NCBI GenBank assembly: GCA_959347315.1
Contig: OY365808.1
Coordinates: 3,711,705 to 3,775,704, forward strand
Source: Bimastos eiseni
Lineage: Eukaryota > Annelida > Clitellata > Crassiclitellata > Lumbricidae
Reading direction: 5' to 3'
Length of the DNA stretch: 64,000 nt
The stretch's first letter is position 1; every line of letters starts with the position of its first letter. The notes below the pieces were generated by a model, which did not search any database, was not told the DNA's origin, and saw only the letters and a list, made by a program, of their open reading frames with translations. This document shows, in pieces, positions 1-55,725 of the stretch. The position numbers and the translations under genes were made by a program.

Positions 1-115
1 CTCGTCCGAGGAGTCACTGTGTAGGGACCCTGAGCAAGTCTTTCGCGCACAATTGCTCTGCAGTACAACTGCAATTGCGCCGTCGAGGCGTATGTGTACA
101 CTTCTGAGGAAAAAA
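1..115 (+). repeat. 3' part of a tRNA-derived SINE, cut by the window edge
   Basis: The sequence from CGTCCGAGGAGTCACTGTG onward matches the 3' body of the SINE at 56855-57030 and the fragment at 63315-63450 (shared: GAGGAGT.ACTGTGTAGGGA, then GAGCAAG, then ACAATT.CTCTGCA). The tRNA-like promoter half would lie left of the window. It sits in the predicted intron after the linker exon of gene copy A. Confidence 0.6.
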
Positions 116-259
116 TTTTGGAAAAAGAGCGGTATCAAATTTCGGTAATAAAAAAAAAAAAATTTTAAAGTGAACACCAGCACAACATTGGCAAGTATTA
201 AAACTGAGGAATGAATGATTACAACAAATATTTCTTAGGTCTATTAAAAATTTACTTAC

Positions 260-3200: not shown

Positions 3201-4079
3201 AGAGTGATGATGATGATGGCTTGATGATGATGATGATTACTATAATGCCACATAAAGAAAATACTAAAGCAGAAGAAGCAAGCAGATTAGTTTTTCTCAA
3301 TGTGGTGTCATAAAAGATCTAATTACAACTATAATTATGTGCATTAATATATCACTATCAATATAGCATTGATTCTGTATAATCAAAATTGTTGGCATAT
3401 TTACAGCATATTTAATCATAAAAGACTAGTGCATAATAAGTCTTCATTATTAATAAATAATAATATGAATTCAATTGTGCTGAGAAATCGTAGTAGCTAG
3501 TTTGAACTTCCACCAAGACATTTATTGCATGAAAAATGCTGTAAATATCTGAATAGCATTATGGCTTTAACTGAATCTGTATCGCTAGATAGCAGTGCCA
3601 AATGAATTAGCAAATAAGAAATTAGTAATAGTCAGAATCAACAAAGGCATACCTCGAGTGTCTAAAAGCGGAGCAAGAAATTTCTCATCATTCAATTTTT
3701 CTGGTTTAAATTGATATACTGTGAATTTTTGCAGCATTTCTGGAATCACTTTGAGATCTTCACTTTGCAGAATGATCACCACGTCACGAGAGAAGAGCTG
3801 GGATTTCTCGACCACAGCATTGGTCTCCATAGTATACCATCGATCCTTCACATAGTCAGGTGTAAGGAAAAGCAGGCATTTCTGACTGGTACCCACTCCT
3901 TCTTGTATGGATCTTTGTATATCATCATTCATTGCTCGGAGGTCGCAAATCACCCCTAGCTTTTCCAACTTTGCACGAAGGCCGAGGACGGCGTTCTTAT
4001 TGGCTGGTGAAAAGCCAATGTAGAGGTGAGAATGGTATGGACCTTCAAGGCATCGGATGCTGGTAACACCGTTATCCAT
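260..4079 (-). CDS. Gene copy A: TIR-STING protein of the TIR-STING-caspase array (3' end beyond the window)
   Basis: Six minus-strand exons join in frame: E1 4079-3653 (TIR), E2 3119-3021, E3 2475-2249, E4 1830-1617, E5 874-806 (STING domain) and E6 367-260 (linker). All have GT donors and AG acceptors. Every junction is phase 1 except E3/E4, which is phase 0, exactly as in copies B and C. The start ATG at 4079 is preceded by a pyrimidine-rich acceptor at about 4127, so a non-coding 5' exon is likely. E6 ends with an open codon at a good GTAAGT donor, so more exons follow to the left. By homology these would be the caspase exons, which are not visible here. The STING pocket keeps the equivalents of human Tyr163, Arg232, Arg238, Glu260, Thr263 and Pro264, but Tyr240 is Phe. 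The predicted protein is cytosolic, with no membrane segment. About 381 residues are visible. Confidence 0.9.
806..3119 (-). CDS. Copy A exons 2-5: STING cyclic-dinucleotide-binding domain
   Basis: Exons 3119-3021, 2475-2249, 1830-1617 and 874-806. NYFYGFLKLVLP matches the first STING helix, HRAGNNKRDFKSSLYKVI the lid and ligand arginines, GEFATPLLTMYE the Glu-Thr-Pro floor of the pocket, and LDLYKFLLPVLDNEISLQ the last helix. Introns separate the same elements in all three copies. Confidence 0.9.
3653..4079 (-). CDS. Copy A exon 1: TIR domain
   Basis: 142 codons plus one base. A beta-strand HLYIGFSPAN opens the domain, followed by an alpha-helix, GVICDLRAMND, GVGTSQKCLLFLTPDYVKD and WYTMETNAVVEKS. 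The Glu four residues after Trp occupies the position of the catalytic glutamate of NAD-cleaving TIRs, but signalling TIRs also carry a Glu there. The donor is CGAG|GTATGC. Confidence 0.9.
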
Positions 4080-22375: not shown

Positions 22376-25233
22376 TCAAAGATAAATGAGCCGATCCATT
22401 CCGGAAGTGAGATGGAATGGCAGCTGGAATCGTTCTGTGACTCGATCATGTTCCTCTCGTTGGCTCAGCTGCTTCTTGACACTGGAACTGACCATCTTGA
22501 GCGCCCTGTCGATTTCCATGTCTTTCCGGAGACATTCGTTCAGTGCCTGTATGTACAGCGATCCAGTATTCGTGTCACGATAAGATATGGACCCAGGCAG
22601 AGTTGAGTAAGACATCAAGAAGTCCGGGGATCCAGGAACAAGGACTGCCTTGTGCTTGAAGGTGATGGGTAAAGACTCATCAAGCGACGACACACTTGGA
22701 GCACTTCTTGCATCTTCTTCCAGGTCAGCTTCCGTCACGCTGATGTTGGAAATCCCTTCTCCAATTGTGTCACAATTTGCCACATTTGCTTTAGAGTCTG
22801 ATTCTATATTTTGTGAGGGTGAATATGTTACATGGTCTCCTGTAGAACCATCAGTTGAAAGGATGTTGCCTGCTGCACCATTTTCTGGCTCAGAGTCACC
22901 TAGGAACATAATGGAATAATTCGCATAAAATTCAAAATATTTTGCATAAAGTAATGTAATGTAATGTAAATCTTCGAAAATTTCTCAGCTCCCACAAAAG
23001 CCATGTCAAGAAGACCAGCTTATTCATCGGCAATGAAATAGTTATGAAATTCAAGTCCGTCAGCTGTCTCAATTGCATCCAGATAACAATTCACATTTAA
23101 AACATATTATTATTTCTGTGTTTATTAATCGCTAAGCACTACATAACGATGAAGCATCAACTCAGGGCAATAAGCAGCTGTAGCTGTGACGGATCAAGGC
23201 TCCCATTTATTGACGGCCCCAAAGGAGGCCCGAACTCATGCTCTATGCGCTACATGCCCAGTACCGCAATCATTCAAATTACGTAATTATCATAAAAAGT
23301 TCAATTTAATACTAGTTATGAAATTCAAACAACTGTTAATTCCTTAGCTACATAGACTCACTTAAAGGTTACAAATAACTGCTGAAGTGAAGAAGAAACT
23401 ATAGTAGGCAGGAGATCAGAGAGAGAACACAAATCCTGTTGTGGTGAGTTGAGTCGACCAGTATATTCAGTGAAATGGGAACACAATTTGGAAAGATCAG
23501 AGTAAGACACAAACAAAAGCTACTTACTTACTTTATGTATGTAAATCAGCATCAAGACACTTTCCAAAAATGCTTCATACATGAGTCTTGTCTCTAACTG
23601 CTTGTTCAATACATTCAAAATTTTCATTTGTTGTTTTTTACGACGATAAAAGATCGATAGAAACCAACCTTTCTGGCATGCCTGAATAAAGAACATCTTC
23701 GGTTTCCCTTTCAGCGACGGACACTTTCTGTCTGTGAAGAAGTCAACAAGGTTGAGGATTTCGACCGGCTTTCCGTCACTTGTGTAGATGACTCCGAGCT
23801 TTCCATGCGTCAGGATGCAGCAGACAAAGGCATCGTAATCGGTGTGATCAGCGATGTGCATTGTCAAAAACAGAGACTCGAGAGTTTGTTGGTTGACGTC
23901 CTTGTGCACATGAACCTCAAATTTTAGGTCTTCAAACAACTTCTTAAGACTCTCTGAAAGACATAAAAGATTTCCATTAGCATCTCAGATTTTAAATATA
24001 GTATTGGTCCTCAAAAGTCCTCAAATATAGTGATGGTCCTCAATAATAGTACAATTATAATTATTCTCTATAACTATTCTCTTATGTCAGTTCAACCAAT
24101 CGTTCGTTCTGGGTAAATGCTATATTGTTCAATCCGATATTATGCTGGTGAATACACTGGGCTCCCGATGCGGCTCTTGTGTGGCATAGACATTTCAGAG
24201 GGTTACATTTCATCATGTCTCATTAGCTTCAATTAATCATAAGCTTCTGCTAGCTCACCTTGTCACCTTGGGCTGTCAGTTCTTTGAACTCTAGATAGCG
24301 ACCATCATGATCAACCTTCTCCATGTCTTTCTTTCCAAAGTCGCGTCCCTTAGTTCCTCCAGGTTCATTCCAGTTTTTTCGTGTATCTCGTCCATTTATT
24401 TTTCCATAGACGCCCTCTTTTCTTCCTTCCTTCTCCACACACCAGCATCATTTCCTTCTGCAGTCCATCTGGTCGCATAACATGTCCTAAGAAGCTGGGG
24501 TGTCCAAAGAACCCCAGCTTCTGCTAGCTAGTTGGGCCAAAAGTCCAACTGGGATAAATCAATGAAACTTAATATACAGTCCCACCAAGATAGAATGAAG
24601 GAAGGAAAAATTCACTGTTGCAGCTCGTCAGTTTCAAGTCATGCAAGTAATTGAATGAAACCCTGATTTTGAGACTTCAGCCCAGCATAATAACTAATAA
24701 TTAATCTAAGTGTGAAGGGCAATCATGGGTATACAGTCTAAGCAACTTCGCTTTCTTAGCTTCAACGCACAAGGGCGTGTGGTTAAGCCTCTCCTTCATC
24801 CCCTGATAATCCCATAAACAGACTGCAATGATTTAACTCATTTCAGAGCACAATAGAGCACTCAACGAGGAAAGAATGTCTGGGCAAACAAACAAATCAC
24901 CACAACACTGGGTTTACACTTGCACACTAATCCTCAACACCATTACACCCCACTCATCAATACAAATTAATCTGAACTTAAATTTAATTTAGAAATCAGA
25001 CTTTCATATGAAAGCATCACAAAAGTACAATCAGATCCACCAAGATATCTTTCTTTTCCATGATCACAATCAACGATCACTCGTTAGCTAGGTCTTTCTA
25101 CCTGCATCTTTATCAGCTCCTTTCCGAGACTGCAAATGTCTGTGTCCTTTGTTGAAGTGTTCGATGTTGACAATCAGACACATTCCTCTCGGGTTGTGGT
25201 CCATCTGATATCTGCTGATCTCATCATAGATAC
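22376..25233 (-). CDS. Copy B exons 7-9: caspase p20 and p10
   Basis: E7 carries the substrate-binding Arg in NPRGMCLIV. E8 carries the catalytic His (THGKLGVIY) and catalytic Cys (QACQK, with the next Gly split by the intron). E9 carries an interdomain linker with TEADLEEDARSAP, then PGSPDFLMSYSTLPGS, the second pocket Arg in SYRD, and a stop after DRLIYL. The interdomain Asp residues are candidate self-cleavage sites. The overall fit is to the initiator caspase-8/10 type. Confidence 0.92.
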
Positions 25234-28200
25234 CTAACATCGTCCAAACAGTGAAATACTTATCAATCAATGAAACTTAATATAGCGCCCTTTCAAGATA
25301 TCTACTCACAGGTGCTCCCGATCTGACTATGGCCAAAAAGTGCAGTTTTCAGTAAGGAGTAGAATGCAGAAGAGATTTTGGGGTAGCCCATTCCATGTGG
25401 TTGGACATACCACTGCAAAGACCCGGTTCAACATCATAGAGGTGCCGACATAGGGACAGTCAAGATCCCTCAAGTAGCAGATTACAGACCTTTGACCGAC
25501 ATTGGCAGTGACAGGTCGACACAGTTCCTTTACTTGTACTGTTAATGTATGCATGATAGGAAACCACATAAAGTGCCTTAAGAAAATGTGAAAGCAAGCA
25601 TACCATTGGCAAGAGTTAAAACTATGGAAGGACAGTTACAGATATTTATTAAAATTTACTCACGAGCTGGATTACATCCATCAACAGCAACAGTTTCAAA
25701 AGTATTCAACAATGAAGGATTTCGGAACAATACATGAGGATTGGTGATTGATCCCATTTTAGATGGATTTCTTTCATTCTGTCCTGAAAAAAAACACATT
25801 TTCATGTTTATAATCATCAATACTAGCATTATTTTCAATCTATTAATCAATATAAACAATAAAATAAGCCCTTCAAGATGCCTACATAGAAGCACTCCAG
25901 ACCCAGATGTGGCTGAAAATAATATAATAATTATCATTTGACTCTCATCTCATCCCTGGAAAAAAAGTTGTCACTTACATGTATTATTGATCACAACTGC
26001 TCCTGATTTTATTAATTCTTTCATTTTGGAAATTTAAATAGTGCCTCTTCAAGAAATCTACTCAACGCAGTCACAGACCAGCCGAAGAGAAGGAAGGGAC
26101 TTCAGCAGGTGGTAGAAAGCATGCGAATTATTCTAGGGAACAAAGTTCCAGCAAAGTCATACAGAAATGTAAATCTGAGGCACATTGCGGGGAATGACGA
26201 CAGCAGGACAAAAAACCATGGCTATTACTCTACAGCATAATTTCTCGCATCAATTTCACTTAACTCTCTCTCACAATATACAAATTTCCAAATTGGCCAC
26301 TATAACTGCTATCTACATTGCATAAAGGCCCATCCATATATTACATATGCAAAGAAATCGAATTTTCGGACCCCCATCACCCTATTGCGTGCATACATTT
26401 CGTGGACCCCTCCTCCATGCGTATGTACATCTGAACTGTGTCCCCCCCAATTGCAAATGCTAAATAGCTAAAGACATCTATAAGATATTGATTATACCAA
26501 AGACTTTTTATTTTTTAAGCATCATATTTAACAGCCATTTTTGTCAACTGTTATGAAGGAATAAACTACTAACTACACTTGCATTTAAAAATGTTTGCCT
26601 GCTACATAAAATTGATTAAGCAGGAATATAGTCTGTGATTGGGTTTACAGTTCTGATCTTAATATGCCGTATTGTGTATGTCAGAATTAGACAGTTGTAT
26701 TTGCATACGTAAATATTTTTGGAACCCCTTCGCCCTTCCATCATACACACCCATATGCACATTCGCAGAAATTCGAAATCCCCTCCCCTCGTAATATGTG
26801 GACAGCTCCTAAGTCATGAATTTTTGCCCTTGAATTGTTCATATATGTCTGCAAAATTTTGTTGATTTCATCCACTTACGTTCCAACAAGATCTCATGGC
26901 GCAAGACTGGAAGAAGAAAGCTGTACATATCCAACTGATTTGGTTTCTCTGAAAATAAATAAAAAATCTATAAATTGAACAAATAATCAAAGCAAAATTA
27001 GGTGAAATAAAAGCAAACAAAGCAATGCACTTTAATAAACTGTAATCATCCAGTGCTAATCGCAATTTCCAAAGCAGAACTGTTTTCAGTAAATTATATC
27101 CTGAATGCAAACGAAGCACATGTAGACGGTTACATATTGCAGAAGTATGCTCATAAGCGTAAAACAGTAGCCAACTGGTTTAGCACTTTATTGACAAGAG
27201 CATGCTAAAAGTGAAACCAACGTAGCATGTCGCAAACGTATAAAACCAGTGTTTCTCAACCTGGTTACCGTGCCACCCAAGGTTGCCATGAACCTGCTGC
27301 ATGGGTGCCACGACTGGATGACAAAAGGGATAAAAAAGAGAACAAATACAGCCATTCACAGTTAGTAATAGGCTTATAATTATTTTTGAAAACATAAAGT
27401 AGTGTACAAATAGTCGCAACCTGCCCTGAAAACTTTTTAAAACTATTGGTTCAAGCACTTGTATTGAAATGACAAGCCTCACTTGTTTACAGCCAAATTA
27501 TCTAAACTGGTGAACTTAACCCTTTATCAACCAGCGTTATTGATAATGCCTTACGTTTTATTACGTGCCGGTCGTTAGAGGGTTAAGGAAAGCAGTGAGT
27601 AATAGAGTAAAGGCATATGCTGAGTCCCAACTGGGACAATATTTATACCAGATACCTGTTGCTGGGTCTGACCAGTAGAGTAGTTTGAACTGGTCGTTGC
27701 AATCGGCGTTGTCTGGATGACTGAGAATGGCTTTCAGCGCGAAGTAGAAGCCATCTCTTTCAGCGTACAGCTGGTCTTTCGTCATACCACAAAGGTTGTT
27801 GCTATACATCTCATACATCGTCAGCAGAGGAGTCGCCAACTCTCCAACGAAGTAGTAGTCCTGCCGCCTCTGTGATTTCAGAATTGCAGCACAACTCATG
27901 AAATCACAACCACAGGCTTGGAAATTTCTAAGGTGCTACTTAATAACCACGTGTAGGACATAGACATTTTCAAAATGCTGTCTAAATAAAGAGATTGTGT
28001 TGATTTTAGAACAAAGAGAGAAGGCATAGGTTCTGTGACAATGGAGCAAGTTTAGAGCACAAGAAATGGAAAGTGGTGGAATACAACAATCAACCAATTT
28101 CCTTAGGATCAATCAAAAAAGATGTTCTTAAATATGACATACTTTTGACTACGCCCTCTCCTTCTCCATATTTCCCCACACACAGCATTGCCCTTCCCTC

Positions 28201-30582
28201 TCTCCTTCTGCAGACAGCTGCACTCCAACCAAGTTCTAGTGCAGCGGATCTCAACTTACTTAGTGGTACAAGCCCTTGGTAATATTACAAAGTTGTGGCA
28301 ACCCCAACAATAAAATTAATTGAGTTACTACCATTCACTGCATTTTTGCTACCATTTTCATGTATTTCACTTCTCTATATTTTATAATCCACACACACCA
28401 TACATACTAACAGCATTGTCAATCATTAACCAACAAAGCAGTTTTTTTAATAATTTTGAAAATTTCAAAATAGAATTTATGAAATGAAATGTTAATCTGC
28501 ATTTCAATATTTATTGTACAAAAACTAAGTTAAAAAGTTGCTTTTAGTGTAGTAGTTAGGGTAGTAAACACTATTACACAACTATTTCAAACTACACTGA
28601 CAATAATCTTCACAAATTTAAGAAGGTTCCAGTTGACCTCTTACAAATTGTAAGGCAACCCCGTGAGGGTTGCCCATAGGCTGAGATGGTCCACTATTCT
28701 AGTACCTAGATAAATAAACCTAATGATCACAAATATACCTCATGACCATAAACCCCATATGATGCTTGTATCCAAACAAATACATCTCGAGTAAATATAT
28801 CAAATATATCTCGTATATATAAATATCACCTTCAGGCTTATTAATCCCACACAATGTAGGGTCAGCCACACCGATCCTTCTTCCTTCTCCTCCACTTTAC
28901 TCTGCCACAAGTGTCTTCATTTTTAAATTTGGGAGTCTTCAGATCCTATTGCATCATATCTTCCCATTTCTTCTTCTGTCGTCCCCGACTCTGTCATCCG
29001 TTAACATATGCTTTCATAATTCTTTTAATGTACCTTTTGTCCTCTCTTCTCGTTACATGACCGTACCATCCCTTCGTTCTGCCCATGAACTCATGGCGGT
29101 TAATCCAGGAGCTTTGCCTACGCGGGTCAGACCAGCTGGAACAGCCTCACCTTTCCTTTTCGGAAGGAGCTGCTGTCTCTTTCCCCTGCTGCCTTTCAGA
29201 AGCGCTTGAAGACTTTCCTTTTTCTGTTTAGCCTTGTGTTGAGTCGTGAGCGTCTGTGATTCGAGTGGCGCTATATAAGTGCACCATTACATGTACATTA
29301 CATTACATCTCATTCTGGCCTCTCATATTTTTTCTGTAATACATGTCACTCCCAGTGTCTTTCTGATATCTTCGTGCCTTTTCTCAGCTCTAAGTGTTAC
29401 TGCAAGAATCCACCTCAGCATTCTTATCTCCGTTCTCTCCAATAAAACTTCTTCTTTCATTGATGGTGTCCATGCCTCTGCTCCATAGAACATTGCCAGT
29501 CTTATCATTGTTTTGCAAACCTTTTTCTTGAGGAGAATCGACATTTTAGTGTCATACAATACGCCCGTCAAATCCTTCCATTTTTGCAGGCTGTCTTTAT
29601 CCCGTTCTTGACATTATTCTCACAGCCACCCTTAGCACTCATTGCCGATCCAAGGTATTTAAAATTTTCAGTTTGTTTCAGCACATTTTCCGCCCTGTCT
29701 TTGACGAGTATTGTTTTATTCGACTTGGAGAAGATCATGGTTTCTGTTTTACTGATGTTTCTCGTAAGTCCCTTGCTTTCCAATGCTTCCTGCCAATCAG
29801 TGAAACGTGTTTGTATCCCTGCCTCCTCCACATCTTCCACTATAAGATCATCTGAAAACAGCATATCTCACGGCACCTCTCTTCTTACATGATCCGATAT
29901 AACATCCATCCAAATACATCTCGTGGCCACAAACACAGCTCATGACCATAAACAAATCCATCTCATGACCACAACAAATCTACCTCATGACTATAAACAT
30001 ATATACATCATGACCATAAGCAATCATACCTCCTGATCAATCAGCTTGTACAGTGAGCTCTTGTAGTCACGTTTCTGATTGCCGGCTCGATTTGCAACAC
30101 GGGTAACGTACTTATCAGTAAATTCTATTTGCTCTCGCGATTGCAAATTGATGGCACAGAAGCAGCTCTCTGGCATTATGATCAGCATCTTCTGAACAGT
30201 CTTTGATATTAGGTCTGGATCATTCTTCAGCGTATTCTCAATCAACCTCTTCTTGAAATCTGACACAAATAGAAGCATTGTTGTTTAAATTAAATGCTAT
30301 TTTGATACAGACAAATATTGGTCACTGGTAACTATGAATCCTATAAAGTGAGAGATAATTAACTGGCCACATGCTCAGAGGATACTTGTTTGGACTGTCA
30401 GTTAGTCATAGACTGATATATCAACTAGTAACTTCTGTCTACAATTACAAATATTCATGTAACATTCTATTTTTTTAACCTGGCAACTGCTACCCGATTT
30501 AGAAACCTGATTATGATGTTACCTGGCAACACGAGACGAAGAAATCCGTAGAAGTAGCCGTAAGCTGATCCATATCCAATGT
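22376..30582 (-). CDS. Gene copy B: STING-caspase part of the array (5' end in assembly gap)
   Basis: Exons on the minus strand: E2 30582-30523 (5' part in the gap), E3 30259-30030, E4 27869-27656, E5 26948-26880 (STING), E6 25783-25664 (linker), E7 25233-25102, E8 23953-23669 and E9 22899-22376 (caspase). All junctions are GT-AG, in frame and in the same phases as copy C. Visible coding length is 1634 nt. STING keeps the pocket Tyr163, Arg232, Arg238, Tyr240, Glu260, Thr263 and Pro264 equivalents. The caspase has YQMDHNPRG, CILTHG, FIQACQKG, SYRDTNTGSLYIQ and a normal C-terminus. The p20-p10 linker is longer than in copy C and is Asp/Glu-rich. No TIR exon occurs between the gap and copy C, so it is either inside the gap or lost. 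Transposon fragments sit in the introns. Confidence 0.9.
22951..23035 (-). repeat. SINE-like repeat with TTACA tail (in the copy B E8-E9 intron)
   Basis: Reverse complement of the 19801-19957 family: TTACATTACATTAC tail, GAAATTTTC.AAGATTTAC, GTCTTCTTGACATGGCTTTT. It lies inside the intron. Confidence 0.55.
24245..24505 (-). pseudogene. LINE C-terminal fragment
   Basis: The minus strand reads LGHVMRPDGLQKEMM and, after a frameshift, DEIHEKTGMNLEELRDA and RKTWRRLIMMVA, which is the tail of an RTE/CR1-like non-LTR polymerase. It is a fragment in the E7-E8 intron of copy B. A perfect 12-bp hairpin (AGAAGCTGGGGT and its complement, around 24491-24525) marks its right edge. Confidence 0.7.
26330..26815. 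mobile_element. Probable MITE
   Basis: Left end GGCCCATCCATATATTACAT and right end ATATGTGGACAGCTCCTAAG are roughly inverted. Both sides carry CCCC-rich inner blocks next to GAAATTCGAAAT or AAATCGAATTTTC. It resembles the widespread GGCCGTCCATAAAT-type MITEs. It sits in the intron between E5 and E6 of copy B. Confidence 0.5.
26880..30582 (-). CDS. Copy B exons 2-5: STING domain
   Basis: Exons 30582-30523 (partial), 30259-30030, 27869-27656 and 26948-26880. Motifs are YGYFYGFLRLVLP, NRAGNQKRDYKSSLYKLI, GELATPLLTMYE and LDMYSFLLPVLRHEILLE. This is the full ligand-binding fold except for the residues lost in the gap. Confidence 0.9.
28242..28696. mobile_element. hAT MITE, 455 bp
   Basis: Begins CAGCGGATCTCAAC and ends TGAGATGGTCCACTA. 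It is flanked by TTCTAGTG (28234-28241) and TTCTAGTA (28697-28704), an 8-bp target duplication with one change. It has no coding capacity and lies in the E3-E4 intron of copy B. Confidence 0.75.
28850..29870 (-). pseudogene. LINE reverse-transcriptase fragment, interrupted
   Basis: The minus strand reads MLFSDDLIVEDVEEAG, WQEALESKGLTRNISKTE and FKYLGSAMSAKGGCENN. A frameshift near 29568 follows, then LAMFYGAEAWTPSMKEE and RMLRWILAV, and after an insertion WYGHVTRREDKRYIKR. This is the C-terminal half of an RTE-like non-LTR polymerase. The plus-strand insert at about 29080-29310 is itself the end of another LINE. Broken and in an intron of copy B. Confidence 0.85.
29080..29310 (+). mobile_element. 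LINE 3' end inserted in another LINE
   Basis: The plus strand reads AGTASPFLFGRSCCLFPL and FRSALKTFLFLF-like text typical of the last residues of Jockey/CR1-type polymerases. It then has GGCGCTATATAAGTGCACC and a TTACATTACAT tail. It splits the minus-strand LINE at 28850-29870. Confidence 0.6.
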
Positions 30583-41694: not shown

Positions 41695-44019
41695 TCAAAG
41701 ATAAACAAGCCGATCCATTCCAGAGGTCAGATGGAACGGTATCTGGAAAAATTCTCCCAGCCTCTTTCTTATACCATCACTCACCAGTTTCAGCGCCCTG
41801 TCGATTTCCTCTCCTTTCCGAAGACATTTGTCCAGCTCCTGTATGTAAAATGATCCGGTCTGCACGTGCCGGTAAGATAAGGACCCAGGCAGTGTAGAAT
41901 AGGACATCAAAAAGTCCGCAGATCCTGGTACGAGGACTGCCTTGTGCCTGCGAGTCGTGGATAAAATATTGTCATGTACCCACACAGTTGGGGCGCTACT
42001 GGCATCTGCCTCATGTTCTGATGCCGCATTTAGAAAGGATGGATGTGTCACGTGATCTCCTGTAGCTGTAGAACCGTCATATGGAGGACAGTTACCTGCT
42101 GTTTTATTTTCCGGCTCAGGGTCACCTATAGGAACATGATGAAACAATTAACTTTTCAAAATAGTTCTGCAAAAAGTCAATAGCTGCCTCAACTGCATTC
42201 AGACAACAATTCACGTGTAAAACATAATTAACATTTCTGCATTTCTTAATCGTTACTGCGTAACGACGAAAGCATCAACCCAAGGCAATGAACAGAGGCG
42301 GCCATCTCGTTTGACAGGTGGGAGGGGGGCATCCAATGCTAGGGGTAGGAAATGTGGGGGACACATGTATAACTTGTTCCCTCAACCCCTCCCCCCGGAT
42401 CGCCGCCCCTGGCAATAAGGAATTGTAACTGAACGTTTTTATCAAGGTCTCTAATAATTAAGGCCTAACTGTCTCAGAGGAAGCTCGAATCCATACTCAA
42501 TGCGTACCATGCCCAGCGCGATAATTACTCTGATGCCGTGCCCAATTAATATTCATGCGGCTGCCCACTGCCCAGATGAAAATAATGATCGGCCTGTAGT
42601 TGCAAAATTTTAGCACCAATTGTTATCTTATTCTATGCTTGAATGTCAGAACCTCCTTAAAGTGAAGCTACCAGAACTTTCAGAAGCTGGGGAGTGATGT
42701 TTCCTACTGGAAAAACTGTTGAACCAATAAACCTATGTATCTCCGGCAGCGGAAGGAAGAAGCAATGGAAACCATCCACGGAGTTGGGATTGCTGCGTGT
42801 CATAGTTATTAACAATTGGTAGAAACCAACCTTTCTGGCATGCCTGAATAAAGAACATCTTAGGTTTCCCTTTCAGCGACGGACAATTCCTATCCGTGAA
42901 GAAGTCAACGAGGTTGAGGATTTCAACCTGCTTTCCGTCACTCGTGTAGATGACTCCGAGCTTTCCATGGGTCATGATACAGCAGACAAAGGCATCGTAG
43001 TTGGAGTGATCGACGCAATGAGTTGTCAAAAACAGAGACTCCAGAGTCTGTGCATCAAGATCATTGTGCACTTCGACTTTGAAGTGAAGGTATTCAAACA
43101 ACTTCTTAAGAAGCTCTGAAAGACATTAAAACTCCATGACCATCTCTGAGTTTTTGCTGTATTGATCCACAATACCAGTATAATTATTATCAATCAATAA
43201 ATCAATCAATTGATATAGCGCCTCTTCAAGAAATCTACTCAGAGGCGCTCTAACTATCCTTTTCATATGGTTTCAGAGATCCACATCACATCATTCCTGG
43301 TTACTTTCAATTTCTCATAAGCTAATTGCCCAATCTGGGGTAAATTCACTGTTGCTGCTCGTAAGCTAATGTAATTGTAATTGTAGTTGAAAACTTATAT
43401 AGCGTAGGCAACATAAGTATTGCCAATGAACTCCAATTTTTGTAGGCCTTCATCTCAGCTAAATAACTAATTATCCAAATGTTGCTATACTTGAAGGGCA
43501 TTCATGCGTATGAAGTCCTAGCAACTTAACTTTCTAAGACTCAATGTAGCCATATTATAGGGTGTGTGGCCAGTCCTCTCCCTCATCTCCTAATCTTCCC
43601 GAAAACAGACTACAATGAATGAAGTCATTATAGAGTCCACGAGAGCTATCAAAGAAGAAACCTTGACTATATCTGTGCAAACAGGCGAATCACAAAAACA
43701 CTGGGTTTACAGTTGAACTCACTACTGCTCAGCATCATCACACCCGTGCACGCATTAATGCAAATTAACCTAAATTTAAATATCATGCCCATATTTGGAC
43801 TTTCCAATGAATACATAAACAAATTACAGAAACCCTCGGCTTCAACGAAGGCAATACTACGTAACGATGAACCTATTAGTCAGGACTTTATACCTGTGTC
43901 CTGTTCAGCTCCTTTTCGAGTCTTCAGATGTCCTTTGTGGAAGTGAGCATTGTTAACGATCATACACAATCCTCTGGGATTGCGGTCCATCGGATACGGT
44001 TCAATCTTATCATAGACAC
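41695..44019 (-). CDS. Copy C exons 7-9: caspase p20 and p10
   Basis: E7 44019-43894 has MDRNPRGLCMIVNNAHF. E8 43115-42831 has CIMTHGKLGVIYTSDGK and KMFFIQACQK. E9 42125-41695 has GDPEPENK, the linker EHEADASSAP, PGSADFLMSYSTLPGS, LSYRHVQTGSFYIQEL and the C-terminus DRLVYL. The His/Cys dyad and both substrate-pocket arginines are intact. The active-site pentapeptide reads QACQK where most caspases have QACRG or QACQG. Confidence 0.93.
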
Positions 44020-47000
44020 CTAGCATTTTCCAAACAGTAAAATGCTTGTACTATTAACTCAACGTGATAGGATACGTGGAAACCAACCACTAGACTATTC
44101 CACTATCAGAAATTTTCCGTATTTTAAGTAGGAACAAAGTGATGCATTATCGATGAATAAATAACCAAACATGCATTATTCTCCTTTGTATGTGACAGTT
44201 TTTATACATGCAATAAGTAAGCACAATCGTAAAAACAAGCTTTGAACTTCTGGAATTTTTTTACCCACAATACCTTAATCACTAAATATAAATAGCTATT
44301 AGAGAAACATAAAATTAGTACTGATTTGGAGGGCCACATGGGGCACTTGGCACTAAAACTGGGGGCTTTGTGTTGACCCTCTGCCCCCGCTTGTTACACA
44401 CCTGGTTTTAAGTATTTTTACAGTTATAATTACGTCCTTCAGAATTATAAGTAAATTTGCATATAACATTCTAAACATCTGGTTTCATTTTCGGGGATAC
44501 AGAGCTTTGTGATGTCAAAAATTGCGTGACATCATTTATGGACGGCCCCATATCCTACCTTTGGCATCGCGGGCCATTCTACGTGGAACACTAGCGATCC
44601 TCAGTAACCTTAAAGTCCGGGGTTCGACCCTCATCTCTTCGTTGCCGGACGACTTTCCTATTTCCTGAGGCTGTAACGATGTGAGCGCTTCTGAATACAT
44701 GTAGATGTACGCCTACTTGAAGAAACGGTGTTTAAATTCTCGGATACGTTACGATTATCGTGAGGCACTTTAAGAAACTGCACTCGAGAATCTTATAGCC
44801 ATTGTTTGTAGATATTGATTAGGCCTAAGCATGAAATCCTAATCAAAACTCTGGCGTATTAAGTAAATAATTGCGAAGGCGCTAGAGAAATGTCTGTGTA
44901 CATGCATATCAAATATTAGATCTAAGTAACTTATATGTTGAAATGAATCTTTCGGCAAGTTAAAACCGAAATTTATTTGGCAGCCCATGCGCTGTTGCAA
45001 TTACCATGTTTCAAGCGACATGATGATGGAAAAGATTAATTTGCATGCAATTTTACTGTACATGTATGTTGTACAAAATAATAGGCCTACTTTATAGTGT
45101 ACACTTTAAAAGTGTCCTGCATATCTCATTTCTATGGAGTGATTATGATTAAGATGACTTTGTTAAGATAATTTGTGCCCCCCCATTTTCAAATTTCTGG
45201 GGAATTCAAAAGTGGAGGGGATTTTTTCCGCTTCGCGCTATGTTTTACAAGTTATGCCCCCACCTTTCAAAATCTTGTTACACCTCAGCTTAAAACTATA
45301 TGAGACCTAGTAGAACGAATAAAAGTAGGCCTACAGAAATTTTAATTTTTACACTCATTATGCATTCCACAAGGGGTTCCGAACACCTCCTACGGACAAT
45401 TCCACCCGGACATTTCCCCCGTGGGACAATTCCCCACCCCTCCCCCCGTATTTCCCCCTGTGATCATAAAACGAGTTTGATGTAAAAACACAACCATCAA
45501 TCTTATTTCGACGTGTCTCACTTTGATGCTTAAGGCAAATGTTGAATCAAAAATAAATAGAAGAATAGTTGATCATGCAGGCTTGTATTGCTTAATTAGT
45601 TGATAGTTAACTAAGGAACAACCAACAACCTTTCTTAATCAAATGTATCTCACTTTGATGCCTTAGGTAAATATTTAACAAATTTTTTATATTTAGCCTG
45701 GCTGCTGCTATATAATCTGCCATGAATCTGTAAGATAAATTATTAGACGAGAAATCCGAAGAGACGGAGGTAGAAACTCTAGCTAATATGGAAAGACCAA
45801 AGTTGCGTTAAACGGCTATGTTTATGTTGAAAATGTTTTATTAAATAACGTCGTTAGTTATGAGTGCGAACGTCGGAGGCGAATGGACAGCTTTAAGTCA
45901 ATGTAAAGCAAAGGTGAAATTGAATGAATATCTTTCGGTCGTTAGTCTGATTCCTTTTCAATTAAAAGATAGTTTAAATTTAAAAAAATGCTCATTCATT
46001 TTGCAGTCTAATTTCATGCTTTGATTTCTTCGGTTAAAAGATAGTTTAAATTAAAATAAATACTCATTCATTTAGCTTGCACTATTTAAATAGTTCAGCT
46101 GTGTCACAAGGGGTGGAAATCCGGGGAAATTGTCCTACGGAGGAAATGTCCGGGAGGAGATGCCCTTGATCCTCCACAAGATGATAAGCTCGGGTTGAAT
46201 CATTACATTAAAAAATGTTTAATCACAATAGCTTGAAACAATTCAAACTTTATGCTTCTCCATACCCCACGGAGAAGCAAACTGTTCCTTCATGGAATAA
46301 GTAGGGAGAACCTGGATCACATCACCCTATTCAATGAATATTCCATTCAGATCCAGCTCGTCCTGGCCTATCCAATCTACACTCTCTCCATTTCTATGTT
46401 TGCGCTTTCGAGTACGACCATTAGTTCACGTTGCCGACGTGCAGTGATTTTTTGTGGCCTCGTGCGATTTGGCGGTTTAATTGATTAGTGCTTGTGCTAC
46501 AGAATGTCTACCTCACTCCCAAAGCCCCAAATTTGACACCAAGCGTAAAAATAAGTAATCCAAAAATTAAGAATATAATTATTATTATTGGTGTAGCTAA
46601 ATTGTGGTAACATTTACTGCTATTTAAATGAAACTTGTTTAATTGAGTGACAGTTTTAAATAAAATTACGACCTTTGTTTGACATATTGTGACGTCACAT
46701 TTCGTCGACCCCTCTCCTTCGTCACACTTTGTAACAAATGGGTGACCCCTCTCTAAACGCGAGACGTCATTTATGGACGGTACCTATTGCGTTGTGAATA
46801 CCGGCATAACATTGGCATGAATTACTCTGTGGGATCTTTATTACAAATAATTATTCGAAAAATTACTTACGAGCTGGATTAGATCCTTTAACAGTCAGAA
46901 TCTCAGAAGTATTCAACACTGGAAGATTCGGCGATATTAAATCGACATTAGCGGTTGTTCCCATTTTAGAGGGGTTTCTGTCATTTTGTTCTGGAAATAC

Positions 47001-50000
47001 AAAATATTATTATTATTATTATTATTGTTATTATTATTATTATTATCATCATCATCATCGTCGTCGTCGTCGTCATCATCGTCATCGTCATCATTACTAT
47101 TATTACCATTATCGTTATTACTTGATGCGTTTCGTTCATTTTTGGTAAGATTCCTGCCTCTGAAAATTATACCTACTGTAAATTAGGCCATTGCCAACTA
47201 TTGCTTTTATTAAACAATGATTACTAATAAGACTGTTGTCATTGAACTTTCTACATGCATCGGGTGGTCATCCGATTAACATTGACAGAATTTTTTTTAT
47301 TTAACTTAAAACATGAATTTGGCATCTTAACAACTGTTGTTTAGATTGGATCACAAATCTTTGCACACTAAGTTGGTCAAATGAGCTTATGGATCACACG
47401 AAAATTGAGGTTACGACGTTACGTAATCATTCGACTTACGCTGCAAGACGATCTCATCGCGCAAGTGTGGAAGAAGAAAGTTATATAAATCCAGTTGATT
47501 TGGTTTCTCTGAAATTCAGTTAGAAATCTTTAAGTTGAAATAAAAATAATCTGGAGGCAAATTCAAGTTCATTTTAAAAAAGCAGAATACAAAGCCTACG
47601 ATGTGCTTCAAGAAACTCTTAATCATCCGAGTTTTTTCTTCGTAATTTAAATACTAAGAGTAATTTTTTCATTCATACAGTGAATGAAGCGAAAGAAGTA
47701 GTTTCATATTTTGTAGACTTATGTGACCAAACGTGTAAGTTGTAACAGTACTCAGCCATATGTTTTAAAACAGTATTTTACTTTCTTTTTCATACATGTA
47801 GCTTGATGCCAAGCCCCCAAGAGAGCCAAATGCGCCCCATCATAAGCGCCCATTATTGCCTATTGCCGTCTGCGTATTAGGCCTATATACTTTGATGTAA
47901 CGTTGTGTTGTCTTCGCGTGAGCACTGGGCACACTTGAAATCATACATCAAAGTGTGTAGAAATCTGTATTGACGTTGCAGCTACTTTTGATGAACTGGT
48001 GGAAAGCTGCAGCCCTCCACTACTTGCACAAATCAATGATTATTGGGAGGGTGACTACGCTGAAGGACAAAAAGAACCGCCGAGGAAATCCGAGATTTCC
48101 GATCACCCTTTGAAACATGCGCAAGCGTTTACAAGACAGTTTGCCACGCACCAACAACTCTGGTGACGCTTGGCATCTCTCATTTCAATAGACAGTAGAT
48201 GGTCAACAATACGTCGGTCGACAAACTCGTTTCCCAGTTTAGGAAGGAACAACATCACGCAGAGTTAAAGATAGAACGCTATCGAGCAGGATTTCGACAG
48301 CCGGAGTTTTCTAAATCAACGTACAATCAGTCTCAATCGACTCCTACTTTCTTTGATTCCAACACACGGCAACTGTTGGAATAGAGACTATGAGAGGAAT
48401 CGCACATAAAGTCGCAGTTTGAAAAGGATGGAAGAAAAGTTTGAAATCCAGTAAAACATTAACAATTAGGCTACGTAGCCTAAAGAGTTTCATTACTGTT
48501 TCAATAGACATTTTCTCTTTCATACTCTGTTTCAATAAAAAAAACTCTTATGTAAACATATGTGTTTATCTTTCTTTCGTGTTTCTCTTGAGTAACGAGC
48601 GCTTTTGACGGCGATGAGCCCATGGTTGTTGACTGATTGATTGAGGGATTAAGCAAATGGCTTGAGAAATGAGGGTGGGCTCGGGGCTCGGTACGACAGA
48701 GCAGATTAGGCGATCCGATCATTAGATCATGGGAATTATATTCTGTTACTTGAAGTAAGCAATGAGTAACTGAGTACATGTTTAGTCTCAACTGAAGCAA
48801 TATTTATACCGCATACTTGTTTCAGGGTCTGACCAATATAGCAGTTTGAATTGGTCGTCGCAATTAACGTTTTCCGGATGACTGAGAATGGCTTTCAGAG
48901 TGTAGTAGAAGCCATCTCTTTCTGCGTACAACTGGTCCATCGTCATTCCACATTGTTTGAAGTAATAAGTCTCGTACATCGTCAGCAGAGGAGTCGCCAA
49001 CTCTCCAACGAAGTAGTAGTCCTGATTTCTCTGAGATATCAGAATTGCAGCACAACTCGTGACGTATTAATAAAGCGCTACTTAATCATCAGGTATAGGA
49101 CATAGGATTATGCAAAAATAATGCGTCAAGTCACAGAGCAGGATCTCGTTGATAAGAGAGGAGACATGTTTTGGTCGAGAGAAGTGGAATGGATGATGGC
49201 TTGGATGGATCAAACCTAGGCCTATTCTTTGGGGCGACAGAGGTTCTGTTATTATGGATCATGTTTGACTGAAAAATGAAAAGGGTTCGACAAAAATTAC
49301 GTCCGTATAAGTAATCTACTATTGATCCCACCTTTTCCCCCTGGCCGTATTCGGCACCATGCAACATTGTCCTTCACCATTCCCCTTGTAGATATCCGCA
49401 CTACGAGTTCCAGGCAAGAATTCTCCGGATTTCGATCAATCACCGGAGAGAAACGAGAAGATTGGTTATTGCGGACTCGATTTGTCGTATCGTCGGTTAA
49501 TAAGCTGGCCACCTTGCCTCGACTCTTGTAGACGCTGATGAATTTTTTAAGATTTACATTACATTACATTTACATTACATTGAAGGGCCTATTATCATGC
49601 TACCCCTTTAGTACTTCAGAAATCTCTTCCTCTGTAGGCTGACTCATTATTAAGAAGCTGATCTTCTGCTGGATATTGTGCCACCGGTTGATGCATCGTG
49701 AATTGGACATTAGCCCGATTCAACAAACATAAGTAAATACGTACAGGGTTGGCCAAACAAGTAACACCCTGCGGATTTTTGCTAATATTTCAGCCAAAAG
49801 TAGGAAATATGAATGAAATTTTACAGACTCAAAGCCAATTCATATCTGCATATAACCGCCAAAATTGATTAACATATGTCAAGCAGAACAAAAGTTATAT
49901 CACTCTTAATGAGTGCAACCACTTATTTACCACTGATTTTTGAGGGCCAAAAACATTTTACGCTACAAAACACTATAAAAACTGAATTAATGAAGTCATA

Positions 50001-53000
50001 TTTCAAGTAGCCTAGTTGTAATAAAACACACTTGAAAATTCTTATTATTGAGAAAAAGAAACTGGAAATAATCGCATACAGAAGTCACTTTGACGTCATC
50101 TAGCAAGCAGTCGATTATATTGGTGGATAAAAATTTCTTGCGATTAATCATTTTATGATAGCTTTTATAACAAAATAAACATGCGAAGGTGTCCATGACA
50201 GACAAAATGTGTATACAGACACTTCATGAATCATGAGCATGATCCTGGAGCCAACGCTGTAATCAAAGCTCACTCTGAAATCACTGGAGCTGAGCAAATC
50301 AAAAATATGCGGACGCATTGGTGATAGGGGTGGGCGGTGGAAGGACACCGGAAAGCAGAAATCTATCGGCACCCGAACAAATATCGAGCATGTTGACGAG
50401 CTTATTTACTCACACAATACATACATACATACATACACACATACATACATACATACATACATAGATACATGTATGCATACATACACACATACATACATAC
50501 ATACATACATAGATACATGCATGCATGCATGCATACATACATACATACATACATGCATGCATACATACATATATACATACATACATACATACATACATAC
50601 ATACATACATACACACATACATACATACATACATACATACATACATACATACATACATACATACATACATACATACATACATACATACATACATACATAC
50701 ATACATACATACATACATACATGCATGCATGCATGCATGCATGCATGTATACATACTAAATAAATAAATAAACTAATAACAGTAATTATGTATGATCTCT
50801 TTTGGCTACGGTGGAAGTGAATTCATAGGTTTAAGCTGCTCCAGTCTTCAAAAACAAGACGCTGTGCACAGTAAAGGCTCTTTAGTGACACAGTGCACAG
50901 TATTATTATCAATGCAAATAACTATGCCTCATAATAGAAAAACGTAGGCCTACCTCGTGATCATAAGCAAACGTAGTAGGCCTACGTACCTCGTTATCAA
51001 TCAGCTTATACAGTGAGCTCTTGTAGTCGCGTTTTTGATTGCCAGCTCGATTTGCAAAACAGACAACGAACTCTCCAGTAAATTCTATTTGCCCTGGCGA
51101 TTGCAAATCGATAGCACAGAGACAGCTCTCTGGCATTATGATCAGCATCTTCTGAACGGTCTTTGACACAAGGTCAGGATCATTATTCAGCGTATTCTCA
51201 ATCAACCGCTTCTTGAAACCTGGCAGAATTATATCAGCATTTTCTTTGAAATAATCAAATAAATGCCATTTTGATCAAGAAAACACTGGTAATTATGTTA
51301 CCTGATCATTTTGTATCCACCCTAGTGTGGATTTAAAGACTCTTACCTTTAGATTATATCTCGTCAATGTTATGTTACCTAGTTATTATGATACCTGGTT
51401 GCAAGGTTCCAATACTTAGGCCTACAGCAGACCATAAATATGAAAATGTAGGCCCTATTCTATTAACTAGTATTAAGCCAGTGGCAATCCAACTTCTGCT
51501 TAAGCGAAACATCTTCATCAAACGAACTTCCAGTTAAGTAAAGAATTCTATTCTTCAATCCAACTTTTATCGAAGGAAGGAACTATTTTCGTCAAAAAAC
51601 TTCGATCTAAAGCTTTAAGCAAAGACTTATTTTCATCATTCGAATTTCTGTGTAAGCAGAGAGTTATTCTCATATTCATGAACTGCTCTGTGTACTGGAT
51701 GTGGGTACCTATTCATAAATTACATGGATATTGCTTAGACGTTATTAGTTGATCTCCGTTTGTAGCCTCGTTCTTATGTTGCCTGGCTATTATGTGAACT
51801 GATCATATTGGTACCTCGCTATCTTTAACCTGGTTATTGTTACTTGCCTTTCTTGCCACCTGATTATGACTTTACCTGGCAACACGAGACGAAGAAAGCC
51901 GTAGAAGTAGCCACAAGCTGATCCATATCCAATGTTCTGTTTTGGCAGTACAGCTAACATCACATTGGGCTCTGAATCCAAAAGTTTTAAGTGCAACAGC
52001 AACAAATTAATTTAGTGCGTCTTCTAAGTCCTGAATGTTTATTTGTTGTTTTTATAGAAGACTAGGTCAAGTATCCGGTTTTGTCCGGGTTGAACTATGT
52101 AAGGTGGTACATTTGAAGTATATTTCGCTAAATAAATAATAATTTTGTTCCTCAAATCTTCATACAATAATACAATAATCATAATTATGACTGCCAGAAT
52201 GATGAATGATGTTGCTGTCATCGGCATAATCGTACGTTTATCATCATCGTCGTCGTAATCATCATTATCATCATCATCATCGTCATCATCGACATCATCA
52301 TCGTCGTCGTCATCATCATCATCATCATAATCATTATCATCATCATCATTTTAGACTTGCTATATTTAAGAGTCATTATATACATTTACAAACATACATA
52401 CATATATACATACATACATACACACACACAGCAACCATCACGGCCACCTTTCCCACCATGCATGTACCTTGATGTGCAACTACAAGAATTCGAGCCTCTC
52501 CACCAAGGCAGTAACTATTTACTGAACGACAGCTTTGTGCATTTCTGTGTTGCTCAACTGTTTTAACTGAATCCTTCCTATTTGAATGAACAGATAGTGT
52601 TATGCCATTCTATTTTTTAGCTACATTGGTTAAGAGCGTGTAGGTCTACTTCGCCTCAGTGAAAGTGACCAAGCGAACAGCGGTTCTGTTCCCCATGCTG
52701 GCTTATTTCAGAGATTTAAATCTTGTGTTAGTACGGTCCTTGTAAGTTGGCGTCACGTCCATTCAAAAGAAAGAGCGGTAGTGAAGGCTCTCATCTGATC
52801 TAATCATTGAAGAAAGGACATTATTATAATAAATTATGGTCCCAATAGAAAACTTTGAATATTTTTATTTTACAAAATATGCAGACCATTGGCATTGGCT
52901 CACCTCGTGTAATCAAATATACAAAATGTGCTAGATATTTCTCATCATTGAATTTCTCCGGTTCAAAGTCTTTCGATGTGAATTCTCGCAGACATTCCGG

Positions 53001-53336
53001 AATCACTTCCTGATACTCGCTTTTCAGAATGATCACCACATCACGAGAGAGGCGCTGGGATTTCTCGACCACAGCGTTCGTTTCTATAATGTACCAGGTA
53101 TCTTTCATGTAATCAGGCGTAAGGAAAAGCAGGCATTTCTGACTGGTGCCTACTCCATCTTGAATTGATGGTTTGATAGAACCCTCCATTTCTCGGAGGC
53201 TGCAAATCACTCCTCGCTTCTCCAACCTTCTGCGAAGGTCGCGCACGGCATCCCAATTGGCTGGCGAAAAACCGATATACAGGTGAGATTTGAATGGACC
53301 TTCAAGTTTTTGGATGATCACGTCTTCGTTATTCAT
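41695..53336 (-). CDS. Gene copy C: complete TIR-STING-caspase fusion protein, 667 aa
   Basis: Nine minus-strand exons: 53336-52904, 51971-51876, 51219-50990, 49030-48817, 47508-47440, 46990-46871, 44019-43894, 43115-42831 and 42125-41695 (2004 nt with stop). Every intron is GT-AG, and phases are 1,1,0,1,1,1,1,1, so the whole protein is one frame. TIR is residues 1-144 and STING 145-347. Its pocket matches human Tyr163 (Y166), Arg232 (R234), Arg238 (R240), Tyr240 (Y242), Glu260 (E263), Thr263 (T266) and Pro264 (P267). The linker is 348-387. Caspase is 388-667, with pocket Arg R403 and R610, catalytic H479 and C522. There is no membrane helix and no CARD or DED. I infer that a cyclic dinucleotide bound by STING clusters the protein and activates the TIR and/or caspase. 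Copies A and B share the exon map. The start has a non-coding exon acceptor at about 53380. Confidence 0.93.
44085..44403. mobile_element. Fragment of the 38883-40040 hAT-like family (intron)
   Basis: Shares GGAACAAAGTGAT.CATTAT and CCAAACATGCATTATTCTCC with 39770-40040 and ends CTTGTTACACACCTG. Lies in the E6-E7 intron of copy C. Confidence 0.7.
44575..44705 (+). repeat. Probable tRNA-derived SINE
   Basis: A tRNA-like core ends in GGGGTTCGACCCTCATC (B-box). A short body with GCCGGACGACTTTCC follows. No complete cloverleaf, so not a tRNA gene. Confidence 0.45.
44995..45296 (-). mobile_element. Second fragment of the 38883-40040 family (inverted)
   Basis: Reverse complement of about 38883-39170, ending CTTGTTACACCTCAG. 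Lies in the E6-E7 intron of copy C. Confidence 0.65.
46680..46792. mobile_element. MITE end, GGACGGYCC type
   Basis: Contains GACGTCACATTTCGTCGACC and ACGTCATTTATGGACGGTAC. A similar end lies at about 44520-44555 (GACATCATTTATGGACGGCC). It belongs to the common marine-invertebrate ..CCGTCCATAAATGACGT.. repeats. Confidence 0.5.
47005..47125. repeat. (ATT)n(ATC/GTC)n microsatellite
   Basis: Lies in the intron just before linker exon E6 of copy C. Copy A has a decayed version at the same intron position (about 455-530), supporting common descent. Confidence 0.95.
47440..51971 (-). CDS. Copy C exons 2-5: STING cyclic-dinucleotide-binding domain
   Basis: Exons 51971-51876, 51219-50990, 49030-48817 and 47508-47440 encode about 203 residues, the size of the soluble STING domain. 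Elements in order are IGYGSACGYFYGFLRLVLP, KMLIIMPESC, NRAGNQKRDYKSSLYKLI, GELATPLLTMYETY, QFKLLYWSDPE and LYNFLLPHLRDEIVLQ. The human Ser162 and Tyr167 positions are Gly and Phe; the other contact residues I could align are kept. There is no C-terminal TBK1/IRF3 tail, as expected when a caspase follows. Confidence 0.92.
49436..49580 (+). repeat. SINE-like repeat with TTACA tail
   Basis: TCGGTTAATAAGCTGGCCACC and GATTTACATTACATTACATT match the 19801-19957 family (similar order and tail). It lies in the E3-E4 intron of copy C. Confidence 0.6.
50418..50756. repeat. (CATA)n microsatellite, about 340 bp
   Basis: Tetranucleotide run in the E3-E4 intron of copy C. It creates several spurious long frames (MYVCMYV, HTYIHTYI). 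Confidence 0.98.
52237..52350. repeat. (CAT)n microsatellite
   Basis: Trinucleotide run in the intron between TIR and STING exons of copy C. Confidence 0.95.
52904..53336 (-). CDS. Copy C exon 1: TIR domain
   Basis: 144 codons plus one base, ending CGAG|GTGAGC. Motifs are HLYIGFSPANWDAVRDL, RGVICSLREMEGS, GTSQKCLLFLTPDYMKD and TWYIIETNAVVEK. Glu85 sits four residues after Trp81, the position of the NADase catalytic glutamate in SARM1-type and bacterial TIRs. Because TLR-type TIRs also have it, enzyme activity is only possible. Confidence 0.92.
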
Positions 53337-54917: not shown

Positions 54918-55725
54918 CAGGTCCGGATCTATGGATTTTTCGTAAGTAGGCGGGATGTAATGTTGCCGCCCCGCTCCCCCACATAAAGAAAAATGTAATA
55001 CGAACAAGACATAACGAGGTTCTGAGCATTATTAACTTGCTAAATATACTAAGCAGTGTACACTGAAAATCTAAATACGAAAATATATGCTATTGAGCAC
55101 GTAGTCTGACATAGAAGAACTAGAAACAGAAATTACAGAATTGTTTTCTTTTTTTCAATCAAATGACACATTATTTATTTTAAATTCACTCTTCTGGCTT
55201 TCAATGCTGCAAACTCCCGAATTAACTCTTCCATATTTAATTGATTTGTAGTTATCTTCTAGATCTAAATCGTGGCTAAACCAGCTATTAGAGCCTGCAA
55301 CATTTTTTTAGATCTCAGATATGATTTGATGAGCTTCAGCTTATAAAAACTTCGTTCATCGCTGACAACTGTGATAGGAAACGTTTAATGAAGTTGAGGA
55401 TTGCGTCTTTCTGCTTGGCCACAGATGATTCACGTCCGAGCCTAAATTTTTTATATTCTCACCCAGACAATCGCTGCCTCTTTCTTCCTCTACCATCCGC
55501 CATTTGGTTATGATATTATTAGCATTTTAGAGAATTAATTTTAATTAAATATCCTATTTCTATATAATTTACAACATTACGTTTTAACTGATATTGATAA
55601 TTATTAACAAGGCGCCCATAACCGGAAGTTGAACTTAATTGATGAAAAGTGAATCGAAAATTGAAATCGAATATAAAGAATTTTGTTGAGCATGTTTAAA
55701 GAGAGAAGAAGCAGATCCGGGCCTA
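54918..55725 (-). mobile_element. hAT transposon remnant, 808 bp
   Basis: Begins CAGGTCCGGATCTA and ends AGATCCGGGCCTA, flanked by the perfect 8-bp duplication TGATGCAT (54910-54917 and 55726-55733). The interior is collinear with 4531-5364, including decayed transposase C-terminus and GATTGCGTCTTTCTGCTTGG. It inserted into the (GAT)n tail. A third terminus of the same type is at about 55785-55835. Confidence 0.85.

Follow-up and report, generated by a model that had tools for sequence, protein, structure and literature searches.

A gene that appears to join a cyclic-dinucleotide receptor to a protease raises two questions: whether one polypeptide is really encoded or two neighbouring genes have been read as one, and what such a polypeptide could do. 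They are posed by a 64,000-nucleotide stretch of the genome of the lumbricid worm Bimastos eiseni (GenBank assembly GCA_959347315.1, contig OY365808.1, positions 3,711,705 to 3,775,704 of the forward strand), called here the window and numbered from its first letter. The mitochondrial contig of the assembly also points to a lumbricid earthworm: the first 9000 bases of C118 (15,339 bp) contain frames identified by eye as nad4, nad1, nad2 and cox1 as well as a match to large-subunit rRNA, and the nad4 protein has, among the matches listed, 88% identity to a cluster named Aporrectodea tuberculata and 85% or less to Eisenia species. A first-pass annotation had proposed that a single minus-strand gene of this window encodes a TIR domain, a STING ligand-binding domain and a caspase. 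The 64-kb window carries three copies of the gene, named A, B and C, of which the annotation had reported copy A alone. Copy A is made of nine minus-strand exons from 53336 to 41695, spanning 11.6 kb. Its eight introns all have GT-AG borders, with phases 1,1,0,1,1,1,1,1, and the spliced frame of 2004 nucleotides encodes 667 amino acids with zero internal stops, which reproduces exactly the exons, the compatible phases and the 667-residue frame of the annotation.

The domain search that the annotation had proposed recognises all three families on the spliced protein above the curated Pfam cut-offs: TIR_2 at residues 21-127 (E 6.2e-8, 33.6 bits for a cut-off of 28), STING_LBD at residues 157-343 (E 8.2e-32, 110.5 bits) and Peptidase_C14 at residues 403-655 (E 8.4e-48, 163.5 bits). 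Exon 1 (52904..53336) provides the start codon and the TIR domain (amino acids 1-145), with a TIR_2 match of E 5.1e-9 on its open frame, and ends at a GT donor in phase 1. The STING ligand-binding domain begins in exon 2 (51876..51971, amino acids 145-177), which has AG/GT borders in phase 1 and is matched by homologues in tblastn. It continues in exon 3 (50990..51219), with the presumed equivalents of human R232 and R238, and ends in exon 4 (48817..49030), with those of E260, T263 and T267; STING_LBD matches the open frames of these two exons at E 1.1e-9 and E 3.2e-9, respectively. Exon 5 (47440..47508) encodes a post-STING helix of pattern L-Y-x-F-L-L-P-x-x-R-x-E, recognisable and aligned in relatives and found as helix 332-352 in the structural model of homologue P0002, and exon 6 (46871..46990; AG/GT borders, phase 1) encodes a variable linker between STING and caspase. 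The caspase large subunit starts in exon 7 (43894..44019), placed by the spliced frame and by alignment and carrying R422 of the S1 pocket, and extends into exon 8 (42831..43115; Peptidase_C14 E 1.7e-24 on its open frame) with H479 and C522. Exon 9 (41695..42125; Peptidase_C14 E 3.2e-11 on its open frame) comprises the inter-subunit linker with D565-A566, the small subunit with R610 and the stop codon. His479, Cys522 and both pocket arginines reported by the annotation are thus present at their positions in the spliced frame, the arginines being R422 and R610. Homologues from other sources match seven of the nine exons in tblastn, setting the acceptor of exon 3, and align with exons 5 and 6 at the protein level. 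Exon 5 (47508-47440) is included and exon 3 made to start at 51219 because the sequences of relatives show both. With these homologue matches, and with exon order and phases that recur in copies B and C, the exon model of copy A is far beyond chance.

A protein homologue search with a 652-amino-acid version of copy A as query returned 13 proteins, six of which (P0001-P0005 and P0008, 94-100% query coverage) have the three domains within a single frame. Each family is found at E <=0.01 in all six proteins; four proteins also exceed every curated cut-off, P0003 and P0004 falling below it for TIR. The longest contigs behind these six proteins measure 2.2-3.5 kb with unbroken frames; as the nine exons of copy A are spread over 11.6 kb, the simplest reading of these contigs is that they are assembled mRNAs. 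They show the opposite of the transcripts ending ahead of the caspase exons that, according to the annotation, would have spoken against a single gene. A profile search lists 12 proteins, adding the shorter jgi-sourced relatives P0014-P0016 and the caspase-bearing P0017, without P0005, P0007 and P0011-P0013.

The architecture is also repeated within the genome. Copy C (minus strand) occupies 1..4079 of the window with exons 1 to 6, its exons 7 to 9 lying beyond the left end, to G000:C3:3708429, and is a complete TIR-STING-caspase paralogue of 699 amino acids. Copy B (22376..30582, minus strand) is a STING-linker-caspase paralogue running from a cut exon 2, exactly at which a 200-N assembly gap falls (30583-30782), to exon 9. 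Both repeat the exon order and phases of copy A. On another chromosome (G000:C4, about 10514294-10524450, plus strand) a divergent TIR-STING-caspase copy has the same order of TIR, three STING exons and three caspase exons; it yielded no recognised counterparts of exons 5 and 6. A tree of 12 rows groups copies A, B and C with P0014 at 93/93, below the starred level of the tool. Among copies A-C the ratio of non-synonymous to synonymous substitution rates (dN/dS) is 0.35 for TIR, 0.36 for STING and 0.31 and 0.26 for the caspase subunits, with a range of 0.19-0.57 over these parts. It is 0.14-0.38 in exon 5, 0.51-1.05 in linker exon 6 and up to 0.71 at the linker start in exon 9. These values indicate that the TIR, STING and caspase parts are under purifying selection. 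The unbroken frames of the homologues, the paralogues both in tandem and elsewhere in the genome and the signature of purifying selection together support the single gene of the first-pass annotation rather than two.

Other features accompany the copies. A stretch upstream of exon 1 in copy A (54918-55287) is 87% identical to 4531-4896 at copy C and forms a common 5' flank of the two, perhaps a promoter or an untranslated exon. A 2469-amino-acid open frame (7519-14928, plus strand) reads by eye as the polyprotein of a Gypsy-type retroelement, and two 2471-bp repeats (5704-8174 and 16219-18689), 100% identical and 10.5 kb apart, overlap the start of this frame; the Gypsy-like element has probably been inserted between copies C and B in the recent past. 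Genome-wide searches, covering 660 Mb in 118 contigs, found a STING locus at G000:C17:9959465-9962635 (minus strand), which was considered as an additional STING-caspase fusion and rejected: around the STING match at 9959528, no caspase is found at E 0.01 within C17 9945000-9974999. The locus is for this reason taken as STING alone and may be the ordinary STING. Caspase exons at G000:C7:17983176 and C1:67722605 share 51% identity with copy A exon 8; the matches listed place no STING beside them, their surroundings not having been read.

Clues to the role of the protein come from the residues kept in the family. For the STING columns we assume a correspondence to human R232, R238, E260, T263, T267, Y167 and S162. 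In the family alignment, the R232 column is Arg in 13/13 rows, that of R238 is Arg and that of E260 Glu in 12/13, and those of T263 and T267 are Thr in 13/13. Most ligand-pocket residues are therefore kept, and cyclic-dinucleotide binding is predicted. None of 16 rows, including copy A, has a transmembrane segment long enough by hydrophobicity, the highest 19-residue Kyte-Doolittle mean being 1.17 in copy A and 1.46 across the 16 rows. The TBK1/IRF3 motifs of vertebrate STING sit in its C-terminal tail; no P-x-P-L-R-T-like or L-x-I-S string is found in copies A-C. The ten TIR-bearing rows all have Glu at column 85, the candidate for the catalytic Glu of NAD-cleaving TIRs, although scaffold TIRs can have Glu there as well.

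In the caspase part, the catalytic His is present across the family alignment in 12/13 rows, the Cys in 11/13 and the two S1 Arg in 10/12 and 10/11, and copies A, B and C have all four. Pfam finds no DED or CARD prodomain on the copy A protein. The inter-subunit linker, where caspases undergo their activation cleavage, is variable in sequence and 67-102 residues long when full. Its aligned rows nevertheless have Asp in 13/13 and Ala in 12/13. Of 12 full linkers read without recourse to the alignment, 11 have an Asp-Ala at 21-27 residues ahead of the small subunit and the remaining one has Asp-Gly. Since this Asp-Ala recurs in the region of activation cleavage, autocleavage is predicted after D565 (D565-A566), perhaps also after a second Asp. 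Among solved structures, the best sequence relative of the caspase part is caspase-8 (E 1.9e-37) and that of residues 1-344 is the oyster TIR-STING (E 9.1e-28 over residues 11-323). In a Foldseek search with the P0002 model, caspase-8 is the top match and oyster TIR-STING (6wt7) ranks seventh. VIA-align is uninformative on TIR and STING, because one domain fills its list: all the best 50 matches listed are caspases or caspase complexes.

We favour the hypothesis that copy A and its tandem copies encode a soluble initiator caspase under the control of a cyclic dinucleotide, which appears probable given the lack of a transmembrane segment and of a TBK1-tail motif, the retention of most pocket residues and the near-invariant Asp-Ala of the linker. 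Cyclic dinucleotides, perhaps produced by the Mab-21/cGAS-like genes of this genome, would close the STING dimer, and contacts of STING (and TIR) could then stack dimers side by side into an oligomer, by analogy with bacterial TIR-STING filaments. The oligomer would bring caspase domains together, leading to their dimerisation and self-cut at Asp565-Ala566, and the activated caspase would bring about cell death or set off an NF-kB-type response by cutting downstream proteins. TIR-STING would occupy the place of the DED/CARD prodomains of other initiator caspases, so that the protein would do without TBK1, IRF or an adaptor. Such ligand-induced clustering and caspase activation, bypassing TBK1/IRF3, had been inferred in the annotation and fits the pocket residues, the absent membrane and TBK1 motifs and the linker Asp-Ala. 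Proximity activation is a feasible step, since an engineered MyD88-TIR-caspase-8 fusion raised cellular caspase-3/7 activity when clustered by a light-driven receptor, according to passages of PMC13403374. For the natural protein, we infer ligand binding, oligomer, cleavage and output alike.

The genome may itself encode producers of the ligand. Mab-21 (PF03281), the family of cGAS-like enzymes, gives at least 148 matches genome-wide, a lower bound that counts matches exon by exon and not genes; many lie on C5 and C7 and many in open frames of 600-1000 amino acids. Four of the best eight (L038-L041) have a G-S...D/E-x-D/E string like that of nucleotidyltransferases; the other four do not and look like ordinary Mab-21. 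The presence of these Mab-21/cGAS-like genes makes producers of cyclic dinucleotides plausible. As an observation in its own right, possible cGAS-like genes are greatly expanded in this worm.

Several observations weigh against a cyclic-dinucleotide-gated caspase encoded by one gene. In the STING pocket, the column of human Y167 is Phe in 7/12 rows and that of S162 is Gly in 8/12, Asn in 2/12 and Ser in only 2/12. The catalytic Cys is missing in P0008 and P0011, the latter also without His, and the usual caspase pentapeptide QACxG reads QACQK-G, with the Gly one place late, in 11/11 rows that keep the Cys. About 20 residues into the inter-subunit linker, 8 of the 12 full linkers have a second Asp, with Gly or Ser as the next residue, so that Asp565 is not the sole candidate cleavage site. 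The P0002 model has a mean predicted local distance difference test score (pLDDT) of 68 and a predicted template modelling score (pTM) of 0.41, and for this reason does not fix the arrangement of the domains. The C4 copy, judged by eye, retains the caspase His and Cys but only part of the STING pocket, and one S1 Arg is gone. P0004 ends short of its C terminus, the homologue contigs are considered mRNAs from their length and open frame, and the best match to a TIR exon of copy B upstream to 41650, a region that includes the 200-N gap, has an E of 1.1. The Cys-less P0008 and P0011, which are possible decoys, the QACQK-G shift and the Arg loss by the C4 copy all speak for a scaffold or decoy, with a TIR for recruiting partners and a caspase domain that is a c-FLIP-like regulatory pseudo-protease. 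However, such a role is unlikely in view of the His, Cys and both S1 Arg kept by copies A, B and C and of the dN/dS range of their caspase subunits. The joining by mistake of two adjoining genes, namely a TIR-STING gene and a caspase gene with its own promoter and prodomain, is even less probable. It would account for the long intron of 2.85 kb between exons 6 and 7, and separate halves do occur in animals, as oyster TIR-STING and as ordinary caspases. But the six unbroken frames come from other sources, copies B and C and the C4 locus have the identical order, the phases are compatible and exon 5 can be aligned in relatives; on these grounds, and for want of a prodomain, two genes joined by eye are rejected. 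A prodomain belonging to a caspase gene of its own is rejected for the interval from exon 4 to exon 7, because none of the 25 minus-strand open stretches of at least 38 amino acids within 44020-48816 has a death-fold domain, their Pfam matches being weak, below cut-off and mostly of low complexity; an exon shorter than this could still encode one.

Among readings that accept a single gene with an active caspase, Dredd-like signalling agrees with the observations no less than death does. The protease would then have as its target an NF-kB/Relish-type factor or an adaptor, and a STING-Dredd-Relish route would be shortened by the fusion. Caspase-8, to whose kind Dredd belongs, is the nearest among solved structures, and a title cited in PMC8204762 connects STING, in insects, with NF-kB activation mediated by the caspase Dredd. 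On the other hand, the sequence identifies no substrate and does not separate death from signalling, and the engineered TIR-caspase-8 gave caspase-3/7 activation in the passages of PMC13403374 mentioned above. We regard signalling as a possible output, with clearly less confidence than we place in ligand gating itself. Slightly more speculative is a death receptor with two arms, in which one cyclic-dinucleotide signal and one polymer could set in action both an NAD+-destroying TIR and a protein-cutting caspase; the tandem family would act downstream of many cGAS-like genes, with its dead relatives as built-in brakes.

STING is known to signal via relay proteins or, in bacterial and fungal fusions, to work next to a single effector on its own chain. 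If the soluble gated caspase that we favour is confirmed, an infection signal would likely switch the protease on directly, without the relay proteins used by other animals, and this would be, as far as we know, the shortest animal route from cyclic dinucleotide to protease. Animals too would then have made sensor-effector fusions of bacterial style. The protein would be a compact reagent, its ligand, oligomer and protease output being testable in one tube, and it makes directly testable whether the old role of STING is cell death rather than interferon.

The gene family described here is real and conserved. Within the open-licence literature its architecture, a STING receptor whose chain continues into what looks like an intact initiator caspase, is unmatched in print as a natural protein, fusions of STING to effectors being already known. 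No natural STING-caspase or TIR-STING-caspase fusion appears among the matches listed, which are mostly titles and starts of abstracts and do not amount to proof. The main text of PMC11668524 has no passage on such a fusion, despite the string 'STING-caspase' there, and STING and TIR are absent as whole words from PMC4715348 and PMC7836458, which deal with the caspases of corals and bivalves. PMC10732462, with 0 occurrences of the word 'caspase', describes eukaryotic TIR-STING as rare and holds it to be a convergent animal fusion; it also mentions bacterial STING fusions to hydrolase or trypsin domains. The first-pass annotation had considered a chain with both TIR and caspase as undescribed, which within this literature stands for a natural protein and not for an engineered one, in view of the MyD88-TIR-caspase-8 described in passages of PMC13403374. 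The latter also has TIR and caspase on one chain, with caspase signalling activated by clustering, but is man-made, has no STING and is clustered via a synthetic TLR. In type IV Thoeris, as cited in PMC12847820, a TIR signal activates a caspase-like protease; TIR, nucleotide signal and protease share one pathway there too, but the TIR makes the signal, the protease comes from another gene of a bacterial operon and there is no STING. The fungal PNP-STING described in PMC12424679 likewise joins a eukaryotic STING domain to a new effector, in that case a nucleoside phosphorylase and not a caspase, and has no TIR. Bacterial TIR-STING of cyclic-oligonucleotide-based anti-phage signalling systems (CBASS), like SfSTING, shares the TIR-STING order with copy A, and its activation by ligand-driven STING filaments (PMC9402430) offers the activation model, although its lone effector is the TIR NADase and the protein is bacterial.

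Among animal proteins, vertebrate transmembrane STING has in common with copy A the ligand-binding domain and most pocket residues; copy A lacks its four N-terminal transmembrane helices, in whose place it has the TIR, and its TBK1-tail motif. Caspase-8-type initiator caspases resemble copy A in their large and small subunits, His and Cys, two S1 Arg and linker Asp, and provide the best sequence and fold match in PDB, but copy A has TIR-STING instead of DED/CARD and QACQK-G instead of QACxG. The TIR-STING of the oyster Crassostrea gigas (PDB 6wt6/6wt7) has the same N-terminal TIR followed by a STING ligand-binding domain and is presumably also devoid of transmembrane helices. Its solved chain of 415 residues, which we take to be full length, matches only the TIR and STING parts of copy A, whereas copy A continues into Peptidase_C14.

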